Assembly: GCA_019635965.1 (NCBI GenBank)
Contig: JAHBYK010000006.1
Span: 1 to 63,637, forward strand
Origin: Parvibaculum sp.
GTDB taxonomy: Bacteria; Pseudomonadota; Alphaproteobacteria; Parvibaculales; Parvibaculaceae
Length of the DNA: 63,637 bases
Direction of reading: 5' to 3'
In this document: positions 47,940 to 60,192 of the stretch, piece by piece
How positions within the stretch are numbered: the stretch's first letter is position 1
Layout of the letters: each line of letters starts with the position of its first letter
Position numbers and translations under genes: made by a program
The notes under the pieces: model-generated
Database searches by the model: none
Told to the model about the DNA's origin: nothing
The model's input: the letters and a program-made list of their open reading frames with translations, nothing else

Positions 47940-48014
47940 TGGCTCCCCGGGCCGGATTCGAACCAGCGACCAACCGGTTAACAGCCGGTTGCTCTACCAC
48001 TGAGCTACCGGGGA
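47940..48014 (-). tRNA. tRNA-Asn (anticodon GTT)
   Basis: A 75-nt cloverleaf read on the minus strand, with encoded CCA. TCCCCGG pairs with CCGGGGA. The anticodon loop CTGTTAA contains GTT, and the T-loop is TTCGAAT. Confidence 0.96.
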
Positions 48015-48431: not shown

Positions 48432-49508
48432 TCAGTCGATGCCGAGGGACTTGACCGGGCGGGCCAGCGCAAAGGGCAGGCCGCTCAACAGCGCATCGAG
48501 CATCCGGCGGTCCTGAAAGTCGCCATTGAGCGAAAGCCGGGGCAGACTCCACAGACGACGAGCGTGACGCGGCTGGATCACGCCCTTGCGCGTTGTCGTG
48601 GCGGAACGGAAGCCCAGAGCTTCGGCGAGCGCGAAGTCGCGCGTGCAGGCAGACGAGGGATCTCCATAGGGATAGGAGAAGTGGCGGGGGCGATAGCCGA
48701 GTTCGGCTTCCATGCGCGCGATGCCGATTTCTATATCCATGCGGGCATCATGTGCCGAGAGATGCGCCTGGGCGAAATGGGACGCCGTATGTGCCTCGAC
48801 GCTGGCGAGCGGGTGTGCGGCGAGCCGGCGTACCTCATCCCAGGTGAGCGCGAGTTCGCGCGTGATCGCCGCGATGTCGATACCATGAACCGAAGCAAGG
48901 CGGCGTATCTCTGCGCGAAGGTCCGGTTCCGGCATTGACCGCAACGGCCAATAGATATTTTCCCAGGCGGTATTCTTTTCAGCGGCAGTGCGCGAGGTCA
49001 TTCGCAGCGGACCGCGCGGCAGATGCGCTTCGATCTCATCTGCCGCGCCGATGATCCGTTCGAGCGCGACCCACCAGATTTCGGCATGTCCGTCCGGCAA
49101 GCCGGTGGTGAGATAGAGCGTGAAGGGTACGCCGTGACGTTCGAACACGGGGAGGGCGTCGGTCAGATTGTCCTTGTAGCCGTCATCCAGCGTGAATACC
49201 GCGAAACGCCCGGAGCGATCCCTGTTGGCGATCCGGGTGACAGCCTCGTCGAGAGATACGCAGCTATAGCCGCGCTCCTTCACCAGCCGGATCGCCTCGT
49301 CCAGAAAGTCCGGCGTGATTTCAAGGATCCGGTTCGGCGAAAAGGCAGCGCCATCGTCGGGCCGGACCCGGTGCAGCATGAATATGACGCCGCTGCCTGC
49401 CAGGGAGCCGGGCGCGATGCGGCAGGCGCCGCTTGCCTCAAGCGCGAGAAGCGCGCGCCCCATAAGGCTTGGCTTGCGCGCCGTTATGCCGAGAGATTCC
49501 TGGATCAT
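48432..49508 (-). CDS. Polysaccharide deacetylase (NodB/CE4)
   Basis: The 358-residue protein has the NodB homology domain: FMLHRVRPDD, the metal-binding FTLDDGYKDN (D108-D109), EAHTASHF with the two metal histidines, and SYPYGDPS. It should remove acetyl groups from amino-sugar residues of a polymer or lipid-linked intermediate. No signal peptide is visible, so it may act on the cytoplasmic side. It is divergent from the first GNAT gene of the exopolysaccharide locus and most likely belongs to it. Confidence 0.88.
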   Translation of the reverse strand: MIQESLGITARKPSLMGRALLALEASGACRIAPGSLAGSGVIFMLHRVRPDDGAAFSPNRILEITPDFLDEAIRLVKERGYSCVSLDEAVTRIANRDRSGRFAVFTLDDGYKDNLTDALPVFERHGVPFTLYLTTGLPDGHAEIWWVALERIIGAADEIEAHLPRGPLRMTSRTAAEKNTAWENIYWPLRSMPEPDLRAEIRRLASVHGIDIAAITRELALTWDEVRRLAAHPLASVEAHTASHFAQAHLSAHDARMDIEIGIARMEAELGYRPRHFSYPYGDPSSACTRDFALAEALGFRSATTTRKGVIQPRHARRLWSLPRLSLNGDFQDRRMLDALLSGLPFALARPVKSLGID

Positions 49509-49652
49509 GGGTCCATTCTGACGGTGAAAAGTTAACGTCCGGCAACTTGCACAGGCCTTGCAGAACAAGGGCCAGAAGGCAGCCAGCGTCCAGAATCGGG
49601 AAACGATCGTCCGCGCCTGCCCGAACAAGAGCTACAGCAAGGCGAGGCCCCC

Positions 49653-50924
49653 ATGACGCCGCTGACGACCGCATTTGAACGCGCCACCGGACTGCCCGTG
49701 CAGCGGCCGGAATGGGCTGACAAAAAGACTTTTATTTCCAGCGCCTTGCAGGCGAACCGGCCGGAAGTGCTGCTGTCGCTTCACGACGAGTTCGAGCCGC
49801 TGAAGGCGGTGTGGCAGAAGCTCGAGCGCGAGGGCGATGCAACGGCGTTCCAGAGCTACACATGGCTTTCGACCTGGCAGCGTCATATCGGGACGGTGCA
49901 GCGTATCAAACCGGCCATCATTGTCGGCTGGGACCGGGGCGGCGGCGCACTCTTTATTCTTCCGTTCGGAGTCGAGCGTGGCGTCATGCTTAACCGGCTG
50001 GTCTGGCTGGGCGAGGGGCTGTGCGACTATCACGCGCCGCTGCTGTCGAAGGAATTTTCCCGGCATGTGAACCCGGCTCAGTTTGCGGGTTTGTGGAACG
50101 ACATCGCGCAGCTTCTGCCGGCGCATCAGATGGTTACTCTCGGGCGGATGCCGGAGCGCATTGGCGATCAGGCCAATCCGCTGATGGCGCTGGGGGCGAT
50201 GCGGCGCCATCCAAGTTCCGCCCATCTCACGCGGCTGAACAAGGACTGGGACTCCTATTACAGCGCGAAACGCTCCGCAGGCAGCAAGAAGCGCGACAGG
50301 CAGAAGCGCCGGAAGATCGAGGAACTCGGCGAAGTGAGCTTTGTGACGCCCACAAGCGCCGAGGAGCGGCTTGCCACGCTCGAGGCCATCGTCGCCCAGA
50401 AGTCCGTCGCCTTTGCGCGCATGGGCGTCGCCAATATTTTCGAGAAGCCGGGCTATCTCGCGTTCTACCGCGCGCTTGCGGGCGATGCGGAGGCGCTGGA
50501 TCTTCTGCATCTGAGCCATCTGACGGTGGGCGACACGGTTGCCGCCGCGAGCTGCGGCCTGAGCATGGGCGGCAGCTACTATTATGTGCTTGCGAGCTAT
50601 GACGAGGAGGCGGAGGCGGCACGCTTCGGCCCCGGCGTCGTGCATCTCATGGAACTCATGGCCCATGCGACGGAGACGGGCCACGCGGTTTTCGACTTCA
50701 CGATCGGCGACGAGGCCTACAAGGAGAGCTGGTGCGAGGTCGAGGTGCCGCTGTTCGACTATTTCGAGCCCAATACGCTGGCCGGCTGGGCCGGTGTGGG
50801 GCCGCGGATCGCACTGCATCAGGCTAAACGATTCATCAAGCAGACCCCGGTACTTTGGCAGACATTCACACGGCTGCGCGCCGCTGCCGCCGGATTTCTG
50901 ACGGCGCGGTCCGCCAGGGCTTGA
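49653..50924 (+). CDS. CelD/BcsL-type GNAT acetyltransferase
   Basis: The 423-residue protein belongs to the GNAT_6 (CelD/BcsL, FemAB-like) family seen in exopolysaccharide loci. The acetyltransferase core appears at about residues 190-370, with KKRDRQKRRKIEELGEV, YYYVLASYDEEAEAARFGPG and FDFTIGDEAYKESW. It probably modifies a sugar or amino group of the repeat unit. It is the first gene of a rightward group: GNAT-flippase-GNAT-oxygenase. The flippase start lies 11 bp later. Confidence 0.85.
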   Translation: MTPLTTAFERATGLPVQRPEWADKKTFISSALQANRPEVLLSLHDEFEPLKAVWQKLEREGDATAFQSYTWLSTWQRHIGTVQRIKPAIIVGWDRGGGALFILPFGVERGVMLNRLVWLGEGLCDYHAPLLSKEFSRHVNPAQFAGLWNDIAQLLPAHQMVTLGRMPERIGDQANPLMALGAMRRHPSSAHLTRLNKDWDSYYSAKRSAGSKKRDRQKRRKIEELGEVSFVTPTSAEERLATLEAIVAQKSVAFARMGVANIFEKPGYLAFYRALAGDAEALDLLHLSHLTVGDTVAAASCGLSMGGSYYYVLASYDEEAEAARFGPGVVHLMELMAHATETGHAVFDFTIGDEAYKESWCEVEVPLFDYFEPNTLAGWAGVGPRIALHQAKRFIKQTPVLWQTFTRLRAAAAGFLTARSARA

Positions 50925-50935
50925 GGGCAATGCCG

Positions 50936-52315
50936 ATGATTTCCGCCACGATGCCGCAGCCGCTGAGACGGGTGGCCGGAGAGCTGCTTTCGCGGCTCCA
51001 GGACGGCCATCTCGGCGGCGTGGTGCGGGGCGCGGCCTTTGTGATGGCGATCAGGGTGGCGGGCGCGGCGATCGCGCTTCTCAGCCAGGTCATGCTGGCG
51101 CGTTGGATGGGCGCCTTCGAATACGGCATTTTCTCCTATGTGTGGGTCTGGGTGATCGTGCTCGGCCTCGTCGTGCCGATGGGTTTTGGTACGTCGGTTC
51201 TGCGCTTCATTCCCGAATACCGGACAAAGCAACGCTGGGCGCGGCTCCGGGGATTCATCGGTGCATCATCCGGTGTGGTACTGGCGGTGAGCTGCGCGGC
51301 GAGCGCCGCCGGCCTCGTGCTGCTCTATGCGATGCGTGGCCATATCGACAGTATCTATGTGCTGCCGCTTGCCATCGGCCTTCTTTGCGTTCCGGCCTTT
51401 GCAATGACGGACTATCAGGAAGGTGCAGCACGCGCCTTTGGCTGGGTGAACCTTGCCTATATACCGGCCTATATCGTCCGTCCGCTGCTGATCGCAGGCG
51501 CGGCAGGCGGCATTTTCCATTTCACGGGCGGCGCCAGCGGCCTTCAGGTCGCGCTGGGCGCGCTTGCGGCATGTGTCGTCACGGTGGCCGTTCAGCGGCT
51601 TCTTCTTCAATACCGGATGGCGCGCGAAGTGCCGTCCGCCCGGCCGGCCTGGCATACGAAGTACTGGATCGCAGCCTCGGCACCTCTCGTACTTGTCGAG
51701 GGGCTCTACATGCTGATGACGAATACCGACATCGTGCTTCTCGGCTATTTCGCCGATCCCGACGATGTCGGCATCTATTTCGCGGCAACACGCATTGCCA
51801 ATCTCATGGCGTTCATCTTCTTCTCGCTCAATGCGCTTGCGGTGCCGAAATTCGCGGAGCTTCATGGCGCGGGCAAGCATGACGAGCTTCAACGATTCAT
51901 GCGCGGCGTCATTCACGCGATGTTCTGGCCGACGCTTGCAGCCGGCATTTTCCTGCTTGCCGCGGGAGAGTTCATCCTCGGCCTTTTTGGCGCCGGGTTC
52001 GAGGCGGGATATGTGCTGCTGGCGCTGCTCATGCTCGGCTTCCTTGTGCGCGCGGCGACGGGGCCGACCGAATATCTTCTCAACATGACCGGCAACCAGA
52101 ATGTGGTTGCACTCGTCTATGGTCTCGCGGCGGCCGGGAACATCGTGCTCAATCTGTTGCTGATACCGGAATTCGGCGCGGCCGGTGCGGCGCTTGCGAC
52201 TGCGATTTCGGTTTTCGTATCCACCGTCTTTCTTGCCGTTGCCGTCAAGCGAAGGCTTGGCATCACGGCATTCATCTTTACGGCGAACCGTGCGCGCGCA
52301 CGGGGCGCCGCGTAA
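50936..52315 (+). CDS. Wzx-type polysaccharide flippase
   Basis: The roughly 459-residue protein has about 12 to 14 helices and belongs to the MOP/Wzx export group (MLARWMGAFEYGIFSY, TNTDIVLLGYF, then the MLGFLVRAATGP region). It should flip lipid-linked repeat units across the inner membrane. ATG 50936 is spaced 8 bases from GAGGG; ATG 50930 is also possible. Confidence 0.88.
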   Translation: MISATMPQPLRRVAGELLSRLQDGHLGGVVRGAAFVMAIRVAGAAIALLSQVMLARWMGAFEYGIFSYVWVWVIVLGLVVPMGFGTSVLRFIPEYRTKQRWARLRGFIGASSGVVLAVSCAASAAGLVLLYAMRGHIDSIYVLPLAIGLLCVPAFAMTDYQEGAARAFGWVNLAYIPAYIVRPLLIAGAAGGIFHFTGGASGLQVALGALAACVVTVAVQRLLLQYRMAREVPSARPAWHTKYWIAASAPLVLVEGLYMLMTNTDIVLLGYFADPDDVGIYFAATRIANLMAFIFFSLNALAVPKFAELHGAGKHDELQRFMRGVIHAMFWPTLAAGIFLLAAGEFILGLFGAGFEAGYVLLALLMLGFLVRAATGPTEYLLNMTGNQNVVALVYGLAAAGNIVLNLLLIPEFGAAGAALATAISVFVSTVFLAVAVKRRLGITAFIFTANRARARGAA

Positions 52316-52330
52316 GCGAGGCACGAGCCG

Positions 52331-53620
52331 ATGACAGATATTCGCCGTCCATCACTTCGCTTCGGTGCACGCCGGAAGCCGGATCAGGCGGGCGCCCCGC
52401 TCACCGTGGTGACACTGTCTCATGCGGCGCGCTATCTGCGCGACATGCCGCCCAGCGCGGATGTGATCGTTCTTGAAAGCGCGGATGCGCTCGCGCCATA
52501 TCGCGCCGATCTCGAGGCGCTAGCCGCCTCTTCGGCCGATACCAACAGCCAGTATGAATTTTACGCACTTGCAGCCGCGATGGAGCATCTGCCGGGCGGC
52601 GGCAATGTGCGCGTGGCATTGCTGTGGAGCGATGCGAACGAGGCCGGTGCGCGGGAACTCCTCGGCGCGGTGCCTTATCGCGTGAGCTTCGGATATATGG
52701 GGCTGCCGCTGCCTGTCTGGCGCGTCTGGCACCATATTCACAGTTATGTCTGTACACCCTTGTTGAAACGCGGCTGTGAACGTCAGGCTGTGAGGCGCTT
52801 TCTGGCGCTGGCGGACGGCGCGGGCGCGGCACTTGTCGAATTTCCGCTGTTCGAGCTGGGAAGTGCATTCGATGTGGCGCTGGTGGATGTTGCCGAGCGC
52901 CACCAGCGACGTGTCGCAGAGACGGACCGGCATGAGCGGGCATTCCTGACATCCGGTCTCACGGAAGACGAATATCTGACTGCGCATATCCGCAAGAAGA
53001 AGCGCAAGGAGTTCAACCGGCTCTGGAACCGGCTGTCTGAGCTCGGCGAGCTGCGGTTTGCGGTTCATGACGGCGGCAATGTGGATGCCTGGCTCAACCG
53101 CTTTCTGAAGCTCGAAGCCGGAGGCTGGAAAGGCAAGCGCGGAACGGCGCTGAAGGCGGATGCCGAACACAGTGCCTTTTTCGAGAAACTGTGCCGGGGC
53201 GCGGCATCGCAGGGAAAGCTGCATTGCACGGAGATCACGCTGGACGGAAAGCCGCTTGCCATGCTGACGAGCTTCCGCGCTGGCGACGGTCTCTACACGT
53301 TCAAGATCGCTTTCGATGAGACCTATGCGCGCTATTCGCCGGGCGTGCTGCTGATGCTGAAGCTGATCGGCGAAGTGCTGCGGGATGAGCGGACCGCCTG
53401 GGCGGATTCCTGTGCGATCCCCGGTCATCCCATGATCGACCATATCTGGGCGGAACGGCGCGAGATGCGGAGCGTTCTCATTGCAGGTTCAGGCCCCTTC
53501 GCCGCGCCGGCGCTTCGCCACGCCGCAACAGCCATCAAACTCACCGGGAAACTGCGCGCAGCATTGCGCAAGCATTACCACGCCTTTCGCAAGGAGAGGG
53601 AAAATGACCAGAATGATTGA
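52331..53620 (+). CDS. CelD/BcsL-type GNAT acetyltransferase, second copy
   Basis: The 429-residue protein is a second GNAT_6-family member, but with little obvious identity to the first beyond the core (FNRLWNRLSELGELRF, KIAFDETYARYSPG, AWADSCAIPGHPMID). The two could modify different positions of the same polymer. It ends inside the start of the oxygenase-like gene (17-bp overlap), so the two are translationally coupled. Confidence 0.83.
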   Translation: MTDIRRPSLRFGARRKPDQAGAPLTVVTLSHAARYLRDMPPSADVIVLESADALAPYRADLEALAASSADTNSQYEFYALAAAMEHLPGGGNVRVALLWSDANEAGARELLGAVPYRVSFGYMGLPLPVWRVWHHIHSYVCTPLLKRGCERQAVRRFLALADGAGAALVEFPLFELGSAFDVALVDVAERHQRRVAETDRHERAFLTSGLTEDEYLTAHIRKKKRKEFNRLWNRLSELGELRFAVHDGGNVDAWLNRFLKLEAGGWKGKRGTALKADAEHSAFFEKLCRGAASQGKLHCTEITLDGKPLAMLTSFRAGDGLYTFKIAFDETYARYSPGVLLMLKLIGEVLRDERTAWADSCAIPGHPMIDHIWAERREMRSVLIAGSGPFAAPALRHAATAIKLTGKLRAALRKHYHAFRKERENDQND

Positions 53621-54515
53621 AGTCGCCCGCGACAGCGTAAAGGAGCCGATGCCGAAAGCGAGCTTTCGCGTCTCGCACAAGCTGGCCGATCATCCCTTGT
53701 TTCAGCTCGACCGGCTGGCACGGCTCGCCGCATCGCTTCCGGCGGATCGAGTCGAGTTCAACGGTCCGGTGGCGCCCAATCAGGATCCGAACCTGACGCC
53801 ATCGAACGGCATGACGCCGGAGGAGACCGTTCGCCGCATCGAGGAGGCGAAGTCGTGGATGGTTCTGAAAAATGTCGAGAGCGACCCGGAATACAAGGCG
53901 CTGCTCGATGCCTGTCTCGATCAGGTGGCCGAGCAGACCGGCGGCCTGATGGGGGGCGCGCGGCAGCGGCAGGCCTTCATTTTCGTGACATCGCCGGGCA
54001 ATGTGACGCCGTTCCATTCGGACCCGGAACTCAATTTCCTGTTGCAGGTGCGCGGCAACAAGCGCATGTCGCTGTTCGATCCGGCCGACCGGGCCATCGT
54101 GAGCGCGGAAAATTCCGAACTCTATCCGGGCAAGCATCGCAATCTGCCCTATGAGGACGGGTTCGAGGCGAAGGCGACGCATCAGCATATCGAGCCGGGC
54201 GAAGGCATCTTCGTGCCGATCTTTGCGCCGCATTGGGTGCAGAACGGCAACGAAGTGTCGGTGTCGTTCTCGATCACCTGGCACACGGAGGAAAGCGAGC
54301 GCCTCGTGAAGTTCTCCTATGTCAATGCCATGCTTCGCAAGTTCGGTATGCCGCAGGGCGAGGTGGGTGCGAGCCCTGTGTGGGACGATCTGAAAGTTGC
54401 GGCCTACAACATTCTCCGGCCGGTCTATGACGCGGTGAAGCATGTCGTCGGCGGCCGTCACCGGGCGCTGGCCTTGTTTTTCGGCAAGAAGGAAGTGGCC
54501 GCGGCGGCCGGTTGA
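53604..54515 (+). CDS. Cupin/JmjC-like Fe(II)-2-oxoglutarate oxygenase homologue
   Basis: The 303-residue protein contains a double-stranded beta-helix with H138-x-D140 (PFHSDPELNFLLQVRG) and distal H210 (FAPHWVQNG), the facial triad of Fe(II)/2-oxoglutarate enzymes. A plausible arginine ligand is not obvious. Similar cupin_8/JmjC proteins hydroxylate side chains of proteins or small molecules. AAGGAG supports ATG 53604, giving a 17-bp overlap with the GNAT gene. Its position in an exopolysaccharide locus suggests modification of a sugar, lipid carrier or protein component; this is inference. Confidence 0.8.
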   Translation: MTRMIEVARDSVKEPMPKASFRVSHKLADHPLFQLDRLARLAASLPADRVEFNGPVAPNQDPNLTPSNGMTPEETVRRIEEAKSWMVLKNVESDPEYKALLDACLDQVAEQTGGLMGGARQRQAFIFVTSPGNVTPFHSDPELNFLLQVRGNKRMSLFDPADRAIVSAENSELYPGKHRNLPYEDGFEAKATHQHIEPGEGIFVPIFAPHWVQNGNEVSVSFSITWHTEESERLVKFSYVNAMLRKFGMPQGEVGASPVWDDLKVAAYNILRPVYDAVKHVVGGRHRALALFFGKKEVAAAAG

Positions 54516-54528
54516 CCGGCTGGCTGGC

Positions 54529-56745
54529 CTACCGCGCCGTCACGCTGCGGCGCGGGGCCTGAACCGGGTATTCCTCGATCGGCTCCGCGCCATAGCGCCT
54601 GTAACGCTGGAGATTGACCTGCGTCAGAAGCAGGCCGACACGGCGGCTGCTGGCGGCGGCGAGGAGCTTCAACGCGCGGGCAACGGCCTTGCGGTCCGTG
54701 TCTGCCCATTTCACGGCGAGTACCGTGATGTCGGTCAGCTTGGCGAGCACCTGGGCGTCGGCTGCGGCAAGGGCCGACGGTGAGTCGATGATCACATAGT
54801 CATAGGTCTGCTGGAGCGCGGTGAGCGCCCAGTGCATCTGCGATGAGGCGAGCGCAGCGGTCGGATTGGCTACCGGCGTTCCGGCCTGAATGACGTGAAC
54901 CGGGCTCGCCGGATCCTTGCGAATGACATTCTGGAAATTGGCGCGGCCCATGAGCAGATCGGTGAGACCGGGGTGGCGGCTCATGCCGAGTGCATCGGGG
55001 ACGGCGGGCATGTGCATGTCGGCATCGACGATGACCGTTCGATAGCCACCCATCGCAAAGACACGGGCGAGGCTCACGGCGGTTGTTGTCTTGCCTTCGC
55101 CGGCAATGGATGACGTGACGAGGACGGTGCGGGCGCGGCGGTCGCCGATACGGGCGAGCAGGACATGGCCCTGCAGCGAACGGATACTCTCCGCATAGAG
55201 GCCGGCCGGGTCGTAGAGAACTTCGTTTGCGGGCATCCGCCGCGTCTTGCCGCCTTCGATCTCCGGTACGAGGCCGAGAAACGGCATACCCGTCGAGCGT
55301 TCGATCTGTTCTCCGGTGCGGAAGCCGCGCTGGAATACCTCGATCAGAAAGGCAATGCAGAAGGCAAAGATCAGACTCGCGATGACGGCAAATCCGAGGG
55401 CTGGTCCGGTGCGCGGGAATGTCGGTGCGGTCGGCTGCTGCGCGCGGGAGACGATGCGGGCGTTCGATACCTGCGTATCCGCCTCGGCGCGGGCATTGGC
55501 CTGCTGATAGCGCAGCAGGAAGGATTCGAGCAAGGCGCGGTTCGTGTCCGCATCGCGCTGGAGGGCGCGGAGTTTCACTTCATCCTGATTGAGCTGGCCC
55601 ATGCGGCGCTGCAGCCGATCGAGGCTGGCACGAAGTGAATTGACCCTGGCGCCGGCGACACGGGCCTCGTTTTCGAGCGCCTCGATGATCTTGCGGACTT
55701 CCTTTTCGACCTCGCGTTCGAGATCGGCGAGGTTCGCCTGCGATTCCTGCATCCGCGGATGCGTCGGGAGCAGGGTTTCGGACATCTGGGCGATCTGCGC
55801 GCGCAGTTCGACTTCCTTCTGGCGAAGGTTCTGGATGAGCGGCGATTGCAGGACTTCGGCCGCCGTATTCACGGCGCTGCCGGAGGCGAGAAGATTCCGC
55901 GCATTGCCAAGTTTCGCCTGGGCGGCGGCGCGCTCCGCCTCGGCTTGCGAAAGCTGGGTGTTCAACTCGGTGAGCTGCTGCTGCGGGAGCGTGGACCCAT
56001 TGGTCAGAAAGAGGCCCGACTGCGCACGGAATGCCTCGACGGCGGCTTCCGACTCCTCGACCTTGATACGCAGTTCGCGGATCTGCTCGGCAAGCCAGCG
56101 CGTTGCCTCGCTGTTGACGCCCGCGCGCTGCTCGACCTGCTGCGCGATGTAAAGCTCTGCGAGCCTGTTCGGCACGATGGCCGCCATGCGCGGATCCGGC
56201 GAGGTGAACACGACGGCGATCACGCGGGAGTTCAGCTTCTGATACACTTCGAGCCGCGACAGCACGACATCGGTGATGACTTCGATGTCGGTCGCGGGAT
56301 TGCGGTCACGGAGCCCAAATGCGATTGCGATCCGGCCGAAGAAGCCGGGCGTGCGCAATGCCGGATTGAATTCCGGGTTCGATGCGAGGCCAAGATCGGT
56401 GATGAGCCGCGCGATGAGCGGGCGCGAGGTCATGACCTGGATTTCGCTGTTGAGCGTTTCGTTGTCCGGCAGAAGCGGCATGTTCTCGGCATCGAATGTC
56501 GAGATTTCGCCGGAGCGCGGCGCGAGCAGGACGCGCGTTTCCACCGTATAGGTGGGCGTCACCGTCATCAGCCAGAAGATGGCGAGCGCCATCGAACCGG
56601 CAAAGGCAAGAAGGATGATCTGCTTGCGGGCCCAGATACCGCGCAGCACTTCCCACGGCGAAAGATCGCCGATCGCGTTTTCATCGGGTGCCGACCTGCG
56701 GCGGTCTCCGAAGGATACGACTGGATTGCTCTGGGTACCGTTCAT
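54529..56745 (-). CDS. Wzc/ExoP-like polysaccharide co-polymerase with tyrosine-kinase-type ATPase
   Basis: The 738-residue inner-membrane protein sets polymer chain length and links to the export channel. It has a Wzz domain, TM helices at about 43-62 and 449-468, a long coiled coil (about 210-420) and a C-terminal BY-kinase domain: Walker A SSIAGEGKT (545-553), Walker A' VIVDADMHMP and Walker B VIIDSPSA. The A' motif ends MHMP rather than the common LRRP, and the tail has only three tyrosines, so autophosphorylation is doubtful. It is read leftward, convergent with the oxygenase gene. Confidence 0.9.
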   Translation of the reverse strand: MNGTQSNPVVSFGDRRRSAPDENAIGDLSPWEVLRGIWARKQIILLAFAGSMALAIFWLMTVTPTYTVETRVLLAPRSGEISTFDAENMPLLPDNETLNSEIQVMTSRPLIARLITDLGLASNPEFNPALRTPGFFGRIAIAFGLRDRNPATDIEVITDVVLSRLEVYQKLNSRVIAVVFTSPDPRMAAIVPNRLAELYIAQQVEQRAGVNSEATRWLAEQIRELRIKVEESEAAVEAFRAQSGLFLTNGSTLPQQQLTELNTQLSQAEAERAAAQAKLGNARNLLASGSAVNTAAEVLQSPLIQNLRQKEVELRAQIAQMSETLLPTHPRMQESQANLADLEREVEKEVRKIIEALENEARVAGARVNSLRASLDRLQRRMGQLNQDEVKLRALQRDADTNRALLESFLLRYQQANARAEADTQVSNARIVSRAQQPTAPTFPRTGPALGFAVIASLIFAFCIAFLIEVFQRGFRTGEQIERSTGMPFLGLVPEIEGGKTRRMPANEVLYDPAGLYAESIRSLQGHVLLARIGDRRARTVLVTSSIAGEGKTTTAVSLARVFAMGGYRTVIVDADMHMPAVPDALGMSRHPGLTDLLMGRANFQNVIRKDPASPVHVIQAGTPVANPTAALASSQMHWALTALQQTYDYVIIDSPSALAAADAQVLAKLTDITVLAVKWADTDRKAVARALKLLAAASSRRVGLLLTQVNLQRYRRYGAEPIEEYPVQAPRRSVTAR

Positions 56746-56978
56746 GCCTTCCGCCCCGCGGCGCCGGGTTGGCGTGACACCGCGTGAAGTTCCTCCGGCC
56801 AGTAGACGGCTTTTAGGTAACGGAAGGTTTAACGGAGCCGTCAATCAGCGGTTTCACTGGCGGATTCCCGCGAAAATCCGTCCGGGCGAGACACAGTCTC
56901 CGGGCGGCGGATTGCCAGAAAATTAACCCTTCCGGTCCTAACTTCGGACAAGCCATTTCTGCCCGGAGACACAGGTCC

Positions 56979-57539
56979 ATGAAACTCCGTTCCGTACTCG
57001 TCCTGATTGCGGCCGCAGTCTTCCTGTCGGCCTGCGCAGCGCGTGGCGTGATCGCGGAGCGGCCGGCGCTGACGGAAGGCAATGCCTATCTGCTCGATAC
57101 CGGCGACAAGCTGCGGATCACCGTATTCGGCCAGGCCGATCTCAGCGGGGAATATACGGTGGACGGCACGGGGGCGATTTCCATGCCGCTGCTGCCGCCG
57201 ATTTCCGCTCGTGGCCTGACCGCTGAAGAATTCGAGGCGGCGCTCGAGGCCGAGCTTGGCGAGAAGCTGCTGCGCAATCCGAATGTCAGCATTCAGGTCA
57301 CTCAATTCCGCCCGTTCTTCATTCTGGGCGAGGTCAAGAATGCCGGGCAGTACCCCTATGTGAGTGGCATGACCGTGCAGAGCGCGGCGGCGATTGCCGG
57401 CGGTTTCACATACCGGGCCAATGTCGATCGTGTCACGATCACGCGCAATCGCGGCGACCGCATTGTCGAGCTTGGCGTGGACAGCAACGAAGCCGTGTTG
57501 CCTGGCGACACGATCCTCGTGCGCGAGCGGTATTTCTGA
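56979..57539 (+). CDS. Wza-like polysaccharide export lipoprotein
   Basis: The 186-residue protein has a signal peptide with lipobox LSAC (Cys19), a Poly_export domain (about 40-110; LLDTGDKLRITVFGQADLSG) and one SLBB domain (about 113-175; FILGEVKNAGQYPYVSG). It is much shorter than E. coli Wza and lacks the C-terminal pore helix, as is usual for alphaproteobacterial types such as ExoF/GumB. It forms or joins the outer-membrane export complex. It overlaps the glycosyltransferase start (TGATG). Confidence 0.9.
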   Translation: MKLRSVLVLIAAAVFLSACAARGVIAERPALTEGNAYLLDTGDKLRITVFGQADLSGEYTVDGTGAISMPLLPPISARGLTAEEFEAALEAELGEKLLRNPNVSIQVTQFRPFFILGEVKNAGQYPYVSGMTVQSAAAIAGGFTYRANVDRVTITRNRGDRIVELGVDSNEAVLPGDTILVRERYF

Positions 57540-58744
57540 TGGCGGCGCCGCTGCATGAGGTGGGCGATATGCGGCGCGTGCTGCATATCATGCGGCTGCC
57601 GATGGGCGGATTGTTCCGGCATGTGCGCGATCTCGTCATGGGACAGCAGGAGGCTGGCATCGCCGCCGGCATCGTCTGTGCTGAGCCGCCGGATGACGGC
57701 ATATCGGCAAAGCGGCTCGCGGATATCGAACGGTTTTGCGGATTGGGACTGCATGTCCTGCCCATGTCGCGCCTGCCGGGCCTCGGCGATATTGCCAATA
57801 TCCGCGAGGTTGGTGCGCTGGCGCGGAGGCTCAAGCCGTCGATCCTGCATGGGCATGGAGCGAAAGGCGGATTGCTGGCGCGGCTCGTTCCGGCGCCGCA
57901 GGATACGATTAGGGTCTACACGCCGCATGGCGGTTCGCTTCACTATGATGGGGCCAGTCTCGAGGGTTTCATCTATCTTGGAGCGGAGCGCCTCATGCGC
58001 TCGCGCACCGACGGATTGATCTTCGAGTCGGCGTTCAGCCGCGATGCCTATCTTGCCAAGGTGGGGCAGCCGAAAGGCGAATCCGCCGTCATTCACAATG
58101 GTGTTTCGGAGCCCGAGTTCGATCCGGTGCAGCCTTATCCCATTGCCGCCGATTTCCTGTTCATCGGCGAGCTGCGGATGCTCAAGGGTGTTTCGACGCT
58201 GATCGAGGCGGCTTCGGCGATGACGCGGCCGGTGCACATCCGTATTGCCGGTGCGGGCCCCGACCGGGCGCATTTCGAGGAACTGGCGCGAAACGCGGGC
58301 GCACATGTCCGTGTTGAATTTCTGGGTGCAATGCCCGCGCGCGAGGCTTTCCGGCTCGCGCGTACCGTCGTCATGCCGTCCTGGAACGAATCCTTTCCCT
58401 ATGTCGTTCTCGAAGCGGCAGCGGCCGGGATGCCGCTTATTGCGACACGGGTTGGCGGTATTCCCGAAATCTTCGGACCCGATGCAGACAGGCTTTTGCC
58501 GCCTGCGGATGCGACCGCACTTGCGGCGGCGATGACATCCGCGCTTTCTGACCCGAATGCCATGGCCGCCGATGCGGCGAGGCTTCGCATTCGGATCAGA
58601 AAGCATTTCACCGCGGCCCAGATGGTTGAACGTATCGACGAGTTCTATTCGCGTCTTGCCGGGCGCGGACGAATGGGCGCTGAGATCAAGCGAATTGCCG
58701 GCGTTGGCTCCAGCAAGCCGGAATTGACCGGGGCAGGGCGATAA
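57539..58744 (+). CDS. GT4-family glycosyltransferase
   Basis: The 401-residue GT-B enzyme has the C-terminal retaining-transferase motif E-x7-E (E284 to E292, NESFPYVVLE) and the phosphate-contacting segment FIGELRMLKGV. It transfers a sugar from a nucleotide donor to a lipid-linked acceptor. The sugar cannot be assigned. It is coupled to the export lipoprotein and to the downstream ligase, and is the only clear glycosyltransferase in the locus. Confidence 0.9.
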   Translation: MAAPLHEVGDMRRVLHIMRLPMGGLFRHVRDLVMGQQEAGIAAGIVCAEPPDDGISAKRLADIERFCGLGLHVLPMSRLPGLGDIANIREVGALARRLKPSILHGHGAKGGLLARLVPAPQDTIRVYTPHGGSLHYDGASLEGFIYLGAERLMRSRTDGLIFESAFSRDAYLAKVGQPKGESAVIHNGVSEPEFDPVQPYPIAADFLFIGELRMLKGVSTLIEAASAMTRPVHIRIAGAGPDRAHFEELARNAGAHVRVEFLGAMPAREAFRLARTVVMPSWNESFPYVVLEAAAAGMPLIATRVGGIPEIFGPDADRLLPPADATALAAAMTSALSDPNAMAADAARLRIRIRKHFTAAQMVERIDEFYSRLAGRGRMGAEIKRIAGVGSSKPELTGAGR

Positions 58745-58745
58745 G

Positions 58746-60071
58746 ATGGATGGCTGGCAGATCGATAGCGGCCGGCGCCCGTCTTCGGAACCCGAGCGCC
58801 GGGGTGCCGCCACCTATCTCGCGGAAGGTCTTGTCGTTCTGGTCCTGCTTACAAGTTTCTATGTCAAATCCGATCCGGCGCAGGACAATCCAGCACCCTA
58901 CGATCTGTTGATGGCGGGAACGGTCGCGCTGATGTTCCTGTTCGGGCTGCGGCTGCCGCGCGGGCTCGGCTGGCCTGCCGCGCTATGGGGTCTGGTCGTG
59001 ATCGGCTTCGTCATTGGCGGGTTCAATGCGATCTATGTCGATCGTGTGCGGCCGTCGCTGATGACCACGGTCTATCTCGTCGGCTCCTTCATCTTCCTCG
59101 TATCGTGGATCTATGCCGATCCGATGCGGCGCATCACGCAGGCGATGTGGGCCTATACCGCGGCGGCCACGCTTGCAGCGACGGCGGGCGTGGCGGGATA
59201 TTTCGGGCTCTTTCCCGGCTCGGAAATTTTCACGCAATATGGCCGCGCGACCGGCACATTCAACGATCCAAACGTCTTCGGTCCCTATCTCGTGGCGCCG
59301 ATTCTCTTTCTTGCGATGAAACTGAGCCAGGCCGGTTCGTGGCGCGCCTTGTGGATGGCGGTGCCCTTCGGCTTGCTGGTCCTTGCCATTCTCCTCAGCT
59401 TCTCTCGCGGCGCCTGGGGCAACCTTGCGCTTGCGGGTCTCGTTTTCTTCGGATTGACGCTGGCAACTTCGCAATCCGCGAAGCAGGCGATGCGCCTCAT
59501 CGGCTTCGGCGCGCTTGCCGCATTGATCGGTCTTGTCGTCATCATGGTGGCGCTGGCCGACCCCAAAGTTTCGGCCTTGTTCGCGGAGCGCGCCTCGCTG
59601 ACCCAGAGCTACGATACGGACCCGGAGCATGGCCGCTTCGAGAGTCAGGCGCGGGCCTTTCAGATGGTTCTCGAGAAGCCGCTCGGTATCGGGCCGTCAC
59701 AATGGGCGCTCATCAACAAGCTCGATACGCATAATGTTTATCTGCATGTGCTGGTGGCGGGCGGATTCCTGTCCGGCATTGCCTTTGTTGCCTTCGTGAT
59801 CGTGACGCATGTCAGGGCGTGGCGCGCAATCGGCCGCCGAGAGCCGGAGACCGGGGTGCTGATCGTCGTTTTCGCGGCTGTTGCCGGCCATGCGGCCGAG
59901 GCACTCATCATCGACATCGTGACCTGGCGTCACTTCTTCCTGCTGCTCGGGATTCTCTGGGGGGCGGTCCTTGCCATCGAATTCAGGGGCAGGGCGCGGC
60001 AACCGATTCCCCGGACGGTACCGCGTCCGGCCATGTTCGCGCCCGCCCGTGCCGACGGCTTCCAGATCTAG
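58746..60071 (+). CDS. O-antigen ligase / Wzy-like polymerase family protein
   Basis: The 441-residue protein has about 10-12 membrane helices and the Wzy_C domain. A periplasmic loop ends in GIGPSQWALINKLDTHNVYL, with the HN dyad typical of O-antigen ligases and polymerases. In this context it is more likely the polymerase of the exopolysaccharide than a lipopolysaccharide ligase. It starts 1 bp after the GT4 stop. Confidence 0.85.
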   Translation: MDGWQIDSGRRPSSEPERRGAATYLAEGLVVLVLLTSFYVKSDPAQDNPAPYDLLMAGTVALMFLFGLRLPRGLGWPAALWGLVVIGFVIGGFNAIYVDRVRPSLMTTVYLVGSFIFLVSWIYADPMRRITQAMWAYTAAATLAATAGVAGYFGLFPGSEIFTQYGRATGTFNDPNVFGPYLVAPILFLAMKLSQAGSWRALWMAVPFGLLVLAILLSFSRGAWGNLALAGLVFFGLTLATSQSAKQAMRLIGFGALAALIGLVVIMVALADPKVSALFAERASLTQSYDTDPEHGRFESQARAFQMVLEKPLGIGPSQWALINKLDTHNVYLHVLVAGGFLSGIAFVAFVIVTHVRAWRAIGRREPETGVLIVVFAAVAGHAAEALIIDIVTWRHFFLLLGILWGAVLAIEFRGRARQPIPRTVPRPAMFAPARADGFQI

Positions 60072-60118: not shown

Positions 60119-60192
60119 TGGAGGCCACGCCCGGAATCGAACCGGGGTATACGGATTTGCAGTCCGCTGCGTCACCACTCCGCCACGTGGCC
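60119..60192 (-). tRNA. tRNA-Cys (anticodon GCA)
   Basis: A 74-nt cloverleaf read on the minus strand, with CCA. GGCCACG pairs with CGTGGCC. The anticodon loop contains GCA, and the T-loop is TTCGATT. Confidence 0.96.

Follow-up and report, generated by a model that had tools for sequence, protein, structure and literature searches.

A predicted JmjC-type hydroxylase encoded beside a FemX-like GNAT_6 protein in a Parvibaculum exopolysaccharide locus

The window analyzed here is a stretch of 63,637 nucleotides from Parvibaculum sp. (GenBank assembly GCA_019635965.1, contig JAHBYK010000006.1, positions 1 to 63,637, forward strand). It contains an exopolysaccharide (EPS) locus at 48432-60071 (Table 1), with tRNA-Asn (47940-48014) and tRNA-Cys (60119-60192) genes on either side. 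The genes for the Wzx, Wzc, Wza, GT4, Wzy_C-type, and deacetylase proteins all score above their Pfam cut-offs, so the initial annotation was right to place an oxygenase-like gene (hereafter CUP) inside an EPS locus. This locus is of the Wzx/Wzy type, in that a flippase, a Wzy_C-type protein, a Wzz/autokinase, and a Poly_export protein are found together. XrtA/PEP-CTERM EPS loci resemble it in the kinds of genes present (Wzc, Wza, GT4, and a FemAB-like GNAT), yet the window proteins fall far below the cut-offs of the XrtA-specific NCBIfam models (TIGR03007, 130.7 against 278.85; TIGR03027, 79.6 against 180; TIGR03088, 89.1 against 409.05). The order GNATa-wzx-GNATb-CUP-wzc is kept in all 14 Parvibaculum regions fetched (from the 26 genomes with CUP). 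Among the open-access matches listed, judged by title and the start of the abstract, there was no relevant report on Parvibaculum exopolysaccharide.

Table 1. CUP and the surrounding EPS genes, with positions in the window
Feature	Position	Strand	Remarks
Polysaccharide deacetylase (Polysacc_deac_1)	48432..49628	-	Pfam
GNATa, second GNAT_6 protein, of the type paired with CUP clade II elsewhere	49653..50924	+	Pfam, tree
Wzx-type flippase (Polysacc_synt)	50855..52315	+	TTG at 50855; true start may be further downstream
GNATb, GNAT_6 (PF13480) tandem-GNAT, FemX/MprF-like transferase; conserved CUP partner	52331..53620	+	Pfam Acetyltransf_6, E 9.6e-23
AAGGAG Shine-Dalgarno sequence of CUP	53591..53596	+	Inside GNATb, 7 nt 5' of the ATG
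CUP, Cupin_8/JmjC-type Fe(II)/2OG hydroxylase-like	53604..54515	+	ATG to TGA, 303 aa; H138/D140/H210, K153, helical C-terminal tail with N241/R245/G248
17-bp overlap of GNATb 3' end and CUP start	53604..53620	+	
Wzc-type chain-length determinant/tyrosine autokinase	54529..56844	-	Convergent with CUP, 13-bp gap
Wza-type polysaccharide export lipoprotein	56979..57539	+	
GT4 glycosyltransferase	57539..58744	+	
Wzy_C/O-antigen-ligase-family polymerase-type membrane protein	58746..60071	+	

Several features of the CUP gene could be verified directly. The open reading frame is as initially annotated, the residues of its proposed metal triad are at the positions claimed, and the gene ends bear out its coupling to a GNAT_6 gene, the overlap being 17 bp because the TGA of GNATb lies at 53618-53620. 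CUP is a real gene, given a Pfam Cupin_8 (PF13621) match above the cut-off (41.4 bits, E 2.1e-10, cut-off 27.4), orthologues throughout the genus, and purifying selection. Of 27 Parvibaculum genomes (source genome counted), 26 have an orthologue, at 66-86% identity, and the single genome without one is 57% complete. Relative to one relative, the differences per codon at positions 1, 2, and 3 are 0.086, 0.073, and 0.417, a pattern that indicates strong purifying selection. No NCBIfam model names the protein. A promoter scan of 49500-57000 returned no sigma-70-like sites (1.5 expected).

The best solved relative of CUP by sequence is JMJD5 (E 1.4e-6), and FIH is also found. In the alignment with JMJD5, the metal histidine and aspartate, an asparagine, and a lysine (K153 in CUP) match, and the spacing from histidine to lysine is 15 residues in both proteins. 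In JmjC/Cupin_8 enzymes, the lysine 15 residues after the first metal histidine is the 2-oxoglutarate (2OG)-carboxylate lysine. We aligned 65 locus sequences plus one further protein (P0001), drawn from 80 loci (alignment A2); L079, which has an undetermined residue, was omitted, as were other sequences that were close copies, truncated, or unneeded. Cupin_8 is matched by 63 of the 66 members at E ≤ 0.001. H138, D140, K153, and H210 are invariant in all 66 rows, as are N241, R245, and G248 in the helical tail that follows the cupin core. Because part of A2 was gathered with motifs that span the triad residues, a separate check set of 40 rows was found by profile. In this set, H138/D140/K153 are kept in 39 rows and H210 in all 40 (the 40 rows represent 38 loci, and both searches yielded loci from G168, G201, G280, and G317, which means that a few genes are counted twice). 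The exceptional homologue, at L153/L168 (G249), lacks the HxD motif and the 2OG lysine, and it has no GNAT_6 gene within 4 kb.

Structure prediction, a check suggested with the initial annotation, was run for CUP with AlphaFold from 66 sequences, and gave a confident model (pLDDT 90.8, pTM 0.88) with a predicted JmjC-hydroxylase fold and a double-stranded beta-helix core. The top Foldseek matches to this model are FIH, NO66, and YxbC (E about 1e-11 to 1e-12). With VIA-align, YcfD is best (Z 17.7, rmsd 3.3 A, 187 residues), followed by NO66 (Z 17.2), JMJD5 (16.5), FIH (15.2), and TYW5 (15.1). Nearly all of these enzymes (YcfD, NO66, JMJD5, FIH, and TYW5) hydroxylate amino-acid side chains in proteins. 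Although YcfD has the closest fold, CUP misses the cut-off of its family, JmjC_2 (PF08007, YcfD-type ribosomal oxygenases; 18.2 bits against a curated cut-off of 22). The triad, the 2OG lysine, and, in the model, the core are common to CUP and the JmjC/Cupin_8 hydroxylases JMJD5, FIH, NO66/MINA53, E. coli YcfD, B. subtilis YxbC, and TYW5, with about 11-20% identity over the structural alignments. Unlike these named hydroxylases, CUP has a family-specific helical tail with invariant N241/R245/G248 and a linkage to GNAT_6. The initial view of CUP as an iron/2OG oxygenase-like protein is thus strengthened by a metal triad and 2OG lysine that are complete by alignment and by the predicted fold, and these make CUP a good candidate JmjC hydroxylase.

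The partner protein, GNATb, was also modeled (pLDDT 90.2), and the prediction is a tandem GNAT fold of the FemX type. The model superimposes best on aminoacyl-tRNA-dependent transferases, namely FemX (Z 21.1, rmsd 4.5 A, 310 residues), FemA (Z 20.2), Sbb17/Sba18 (20.1/19.9), and MprF/PG synthases (17.6-18.6), with 8-13% identity to FemX, FemA, MprF, and Sbb17, and the best acetyl-CoA tandem GNAT is mycothiol synthase (Z 13.6). By its model, GNATb therefore appears FemX/MprF-like, although fold alone is no proof of an aminoacyl-tRNA donor. The BspF crotonyltransferase model (NF047385) scores 166.8 bits on GNATb, below its cut-off of 775. GNATb-type proteins share a D359-S-C-A motif with its cysteine, W373, and R376-R377, all invariant in 30 of 30 rows (alignment A3), and these are candidate catalytic residues. 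We know of no 2OG hydroxylase partner for the FemX, FemA, MprF, or Sbb17 transferases. Caulobacter HfsK resembles GNATb in fold type and setting: it is a tandem GNAT of the FemX-like kind, and its EPS pathway also includes a polysaccharide deacetylase, HfsH. In the available part of the report on it, the authors propose that HfsK acylates the polysaccharide of the holdfast, describe its exact role as unclear and, unlike the case of GNATb, name no oxygenase partner for it (PMC5362036).

The association of CUP with GNAT_6 genes was evaluated across whole genomes using Pfam PF13480, because our iterated GNAT HMM was trained partly on neighborhoods labeled by that same HMM. The first sample comprised all CUP homologues and all PF13480 genes of 23 genomes (in four of them CUP positions came from genus orthologue searches). 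In it, a GNAT_6 gene lies on the same strand within 4 kb of 22 of 28 CUP homologues, where 0.13 would be expected (a simple position-based figure, for genomes that share phylogeny), and none of nine other Cupin_8 genes has such a neighbor. A second sample, 32 further genomes from a phylum-wide draw, gave 25 of 36 against 0.19, reckoned in the same way for similarly related genomes, with no such neighbor for any of six other Cupin_8 genes. Pooled, 47 of 64 homologues are paired, compared with about 0.3 expected, and 0 of 15 other Cupin_8 genes. The 59 loci L077-L135, from named genomes outside Parvibaculum, include 51 in which a GNAT_6 gene lies no more than 4 kb from CUP on the same strand (L106 runs up to the edge of its contig). 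In many loci the two genes overlap by 1 bp according to the called gene ends. The partner is not obligatory, since 17 of the 64 homologues lack one by this measure, including all five from outside the Alphaproteobacteria in the phylum-wide draw.

No open reading frame matched both the CUP and the GNAT HMMs, and a 790-aa frame at L162 that had been considered as a fusion was rejected, as it looks like an open frame that simply runs on through high-GC DNA. A scan of a viral contig collection found no CUP relative. Four plasmid records have one (best identity 30%). The Mariluticola plasmid (L032) has the arrangement CUP-GNAT-flippase-GumC, the relative on the Paraburkholderia plasmid (L031) lacks both GNAT and EPS genes in its vicinity, and that of Aulosira (L033) is a short ORF near NRPS genes.

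The module exists in two versions. A quick tree of 95 CUP rows, with several long branches, has two deep clades (CUP-I and CUP-II), and a tree of 104 GNAT rows, made likewise and also with several long branches, has two main groups (GNATa and GNATb). In CUP-I, 36 of 46 members have a partner, which is GNATb-type in all 36 cases, with the GNAT gene first in 35. In CUP-II, 41 of 49 have a partner, GNATa-type in 37 (CUP first in 35, GNAT first in two); the exceptions are L048-L051, in which four GNATb-type partners are separated from CUP by a flippase gene. The pairing is thus kept in both deep clades despite opposite gene orders. The GNATa protein of Parvibaculum is of the type that partners CUP-II elsewhere. 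Both CUP clades occur together in an alphaproteobacterium of another family (L159; G147:C1:1572000-1591999), where the order GNAT-CUP-GNAT-wzx-GNAT-CUP-wzc-wza-GT4-wzy corresponds to a Parvibaculum-like locus to which a CUP-II and one more GNAT gene have been added. In a related genus (L177; G028:C1:1668000-1687999), two GNATa-type genes lie by a Wzz gene without CUP, and a CUP-wzx-GNATb unit is found elsewhere on the chromosome, so the locus appears to have been split.

How far the EPS setting extends is a separate matter. A Wzz (Wzc-type) gene lies within 15 kb of 12 of the 28 CUP genes of the first sample, against 0.47 expected (again a simple position-based figure for genomes with shared phylogeny), and of none of the nine other Cupin_8 genes. 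The EPS association is therefore real, but involves only four of the 13 genera of that sample. The pair has neighbors that vary by lineage in Devosia, Parasphingopyxis, and others, and these neighbors look unrelated to EPS; EPS as a universal context was rejected, given the recurrent non-EPS-like neighbors in Devosia, Parasphingopyxis, and Sphingomonas. The initial annotation, which centered on EPS and proposed co-occurrence with GNAT_6/Wzc loci, is therefore upheld in part: the link to GNAT_6 is the stronger one and that to Wzc is partial, and the distribution of CUP relative to EPS genes is neither random nor exclusive. The conserved partner of CUP is a GNAT_6 gene, not EPS genes in general, and the functional unit is the GNAT_6-CUP pair, inside and outside EPS loci. 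CUP homologues are a JmjC subfamily so far without a name, found in a two-gene module with GNAT_6.

Some neighborhoods have other contents. At L099:9824-13336 and L169:9033-10907, which belong to a Candidatus Eremiobacterota MAG and an alphaproteobacterium, CUP homologues stand in tandem without a GNAT partner, inside NRPS/PKS clusters that have an aminotransferase domain embedded in them. Genes for an AMP-ligase and a PLP-decarboxylase, a possible donor pathway, adjoin the CUP-GNAT pair at L130:12015-14838 and also at L128 and L132. The L130 genes fall just below the cut-offs of exosortase-A-associated models (TIGR03098, 578.2 against 592.35; TIGR03099, 417.9 against 478.45). The presence of TIGR03098/TIGR03099-like genes beside a Bradyrhizobium-type CUP-GNAT pair is a resemblance to XrtA/PEP-CTERM loci. 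As a general donor pathway this idea was dropped, because the genes were found only at these three loci, which are close copies of one another. A His-tRNA-synthetase-like gene downstream in Hyphomicrobium (L112) was likewise dropped as an aminoacyl-tRNA supplier, as it was seen there only.

That CUP recurs, across many different bacteria, next to one kind of FemX-like transferase suggests that both enzymes act on the same chemical group. In the mechanism that we propose, CUP would be a cytosolic Fe(II)/2OG hydroxylase that works with its coupled GNAT_6 partner. GNATb would load an acceptor with an acyl group, which may be an amino acid. The probable acceptor in Parvibaculum is an EPS precursor that is linked to undecaprenyl or to a nucleotide and has yet to be flipped by Wzx. 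CUP would hydroxylate the acyl group before or after its transfer, at the cytosolic face and prior to export. We hold with moderate confidence, close to an even chance, that CUP is a putative active hydroxylase of the same substrate as its GNAT partner; the further detail of an aminoacyl group on EPS is more tentative, at well below an even chance. Because the pair occurs outside EPS loci in several genera, the acceptor in general may be something other than an EPS precursor. The partnerless homologues in NRPS/PKS clusters (L099, L169) are consistent with an amino-acid or acyl substrate, and we count in favor of a joint substrate that the homologue without HxD and lysine (G249) also lacks a nearby GNAT_6 gene. 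The 17 homologues without a partner and the four CUP-II loci with the other GNAT type (L048-L051) count against it.

The strongest rival is that CUP hydroxylates the GNAT protein, or another locus protein such as Wzc, and so tunes its activity with oxygen or 2OG. Proteins are among the known targets of JmjC hydroxylases, which makes GNATb a possible substrate; YcfD, NO66, MINA53, JMJD5, and FIH, which top the fold list, are protein hydroxylases, and the GNAT partner is the sole neighbor conserved in both CUP clades. However, two deep GNAT types would both need the same regulatory site, and for the partnerless members in NRPS/PKS clusters a small-molecule substrate is simpler. We consider this explanation improbable. 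Quite improbable is direct hydroxylation of an EPS sugar or the lipid carrier, with the GNAT gene simply co-inherited. For this, there is the synteny of the EPS locus around CUP in all 14 Parvibaculum regions examined, the excess of Wzz/Wzc genes near CUP homologues, and a precedent in KdoO, a hydroxylase that to our knowledge has not been linked to any GNAT. KdoO is described, in the available text, as an Fe2+/2OG-dependent Kdo 3-hydroxylase (PMC8533242). Its likeness to the proposed CUP lies in its role, that of a 2OG hydroxylase modifying a surface glycan while it is being assembled; KdoO differs in acting on the Kdo sugar of the LPS core. Outside EPS loci, however, it is GNAT that is retained and not the EPS genes. 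Finally, a non-catalytic JmjC-fold protein serving as a structural or sensory subunit of GNAT would account for the member without HxD/K and for the conservation in A2 of N241, R245, and G248, outside the cupin core, to the same degree as the metal site, but is highly improbable because H138, D140, K153, and H210, which are retained in every A2 row and together in 39 of the 40 further rows, are residues usually lost in non-catalytic proteins.

Returning to a substrate shared by CUP and its GNAT partner, the broadest version of this proposal treats the two enzymes as a portable module whose products are hydroxy-acyl or hydroxy-aminoacyl groups, carried by surface glycans or by other acceptors in the envelope. 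In such a module, the FemX-like enzyme would take an amino acid from aminoacyl-tRNA and the JmjC-type hydroxylase would oxidize it, and two parallel versions (GNATb-CUP-I and CUP-II-GNATa) would be able to share one EPS locus, as at L159. In this generality the proposal is doubtful. We found no description of JmjC-type hydroxylation of FemX-delivered aminoacyl groups on exopolysaccharides in the open-access literature, where absence is weak evidence.

Proteins and tRNA are the best-known substrates of JmjC-type hydroxylases. Here, a bacterial JmjC subfamily without a name is tied by gene neighborhood to FemX-like transferases. What FemX-like transferases act on in EPS biogenesis is an open question, as the available part of the HfsK report indicates (PMC5362036). 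If the pair does act on one group, the mark left by hydroxylation (+16 Da, with 2OG dependence) would provide a handle on both the attached group and its acceptor. CUP homologues were present in 40 of the 397 Pseudomonadota genomes sampled, a frequency that would allow such tests of the module in culturable genera.
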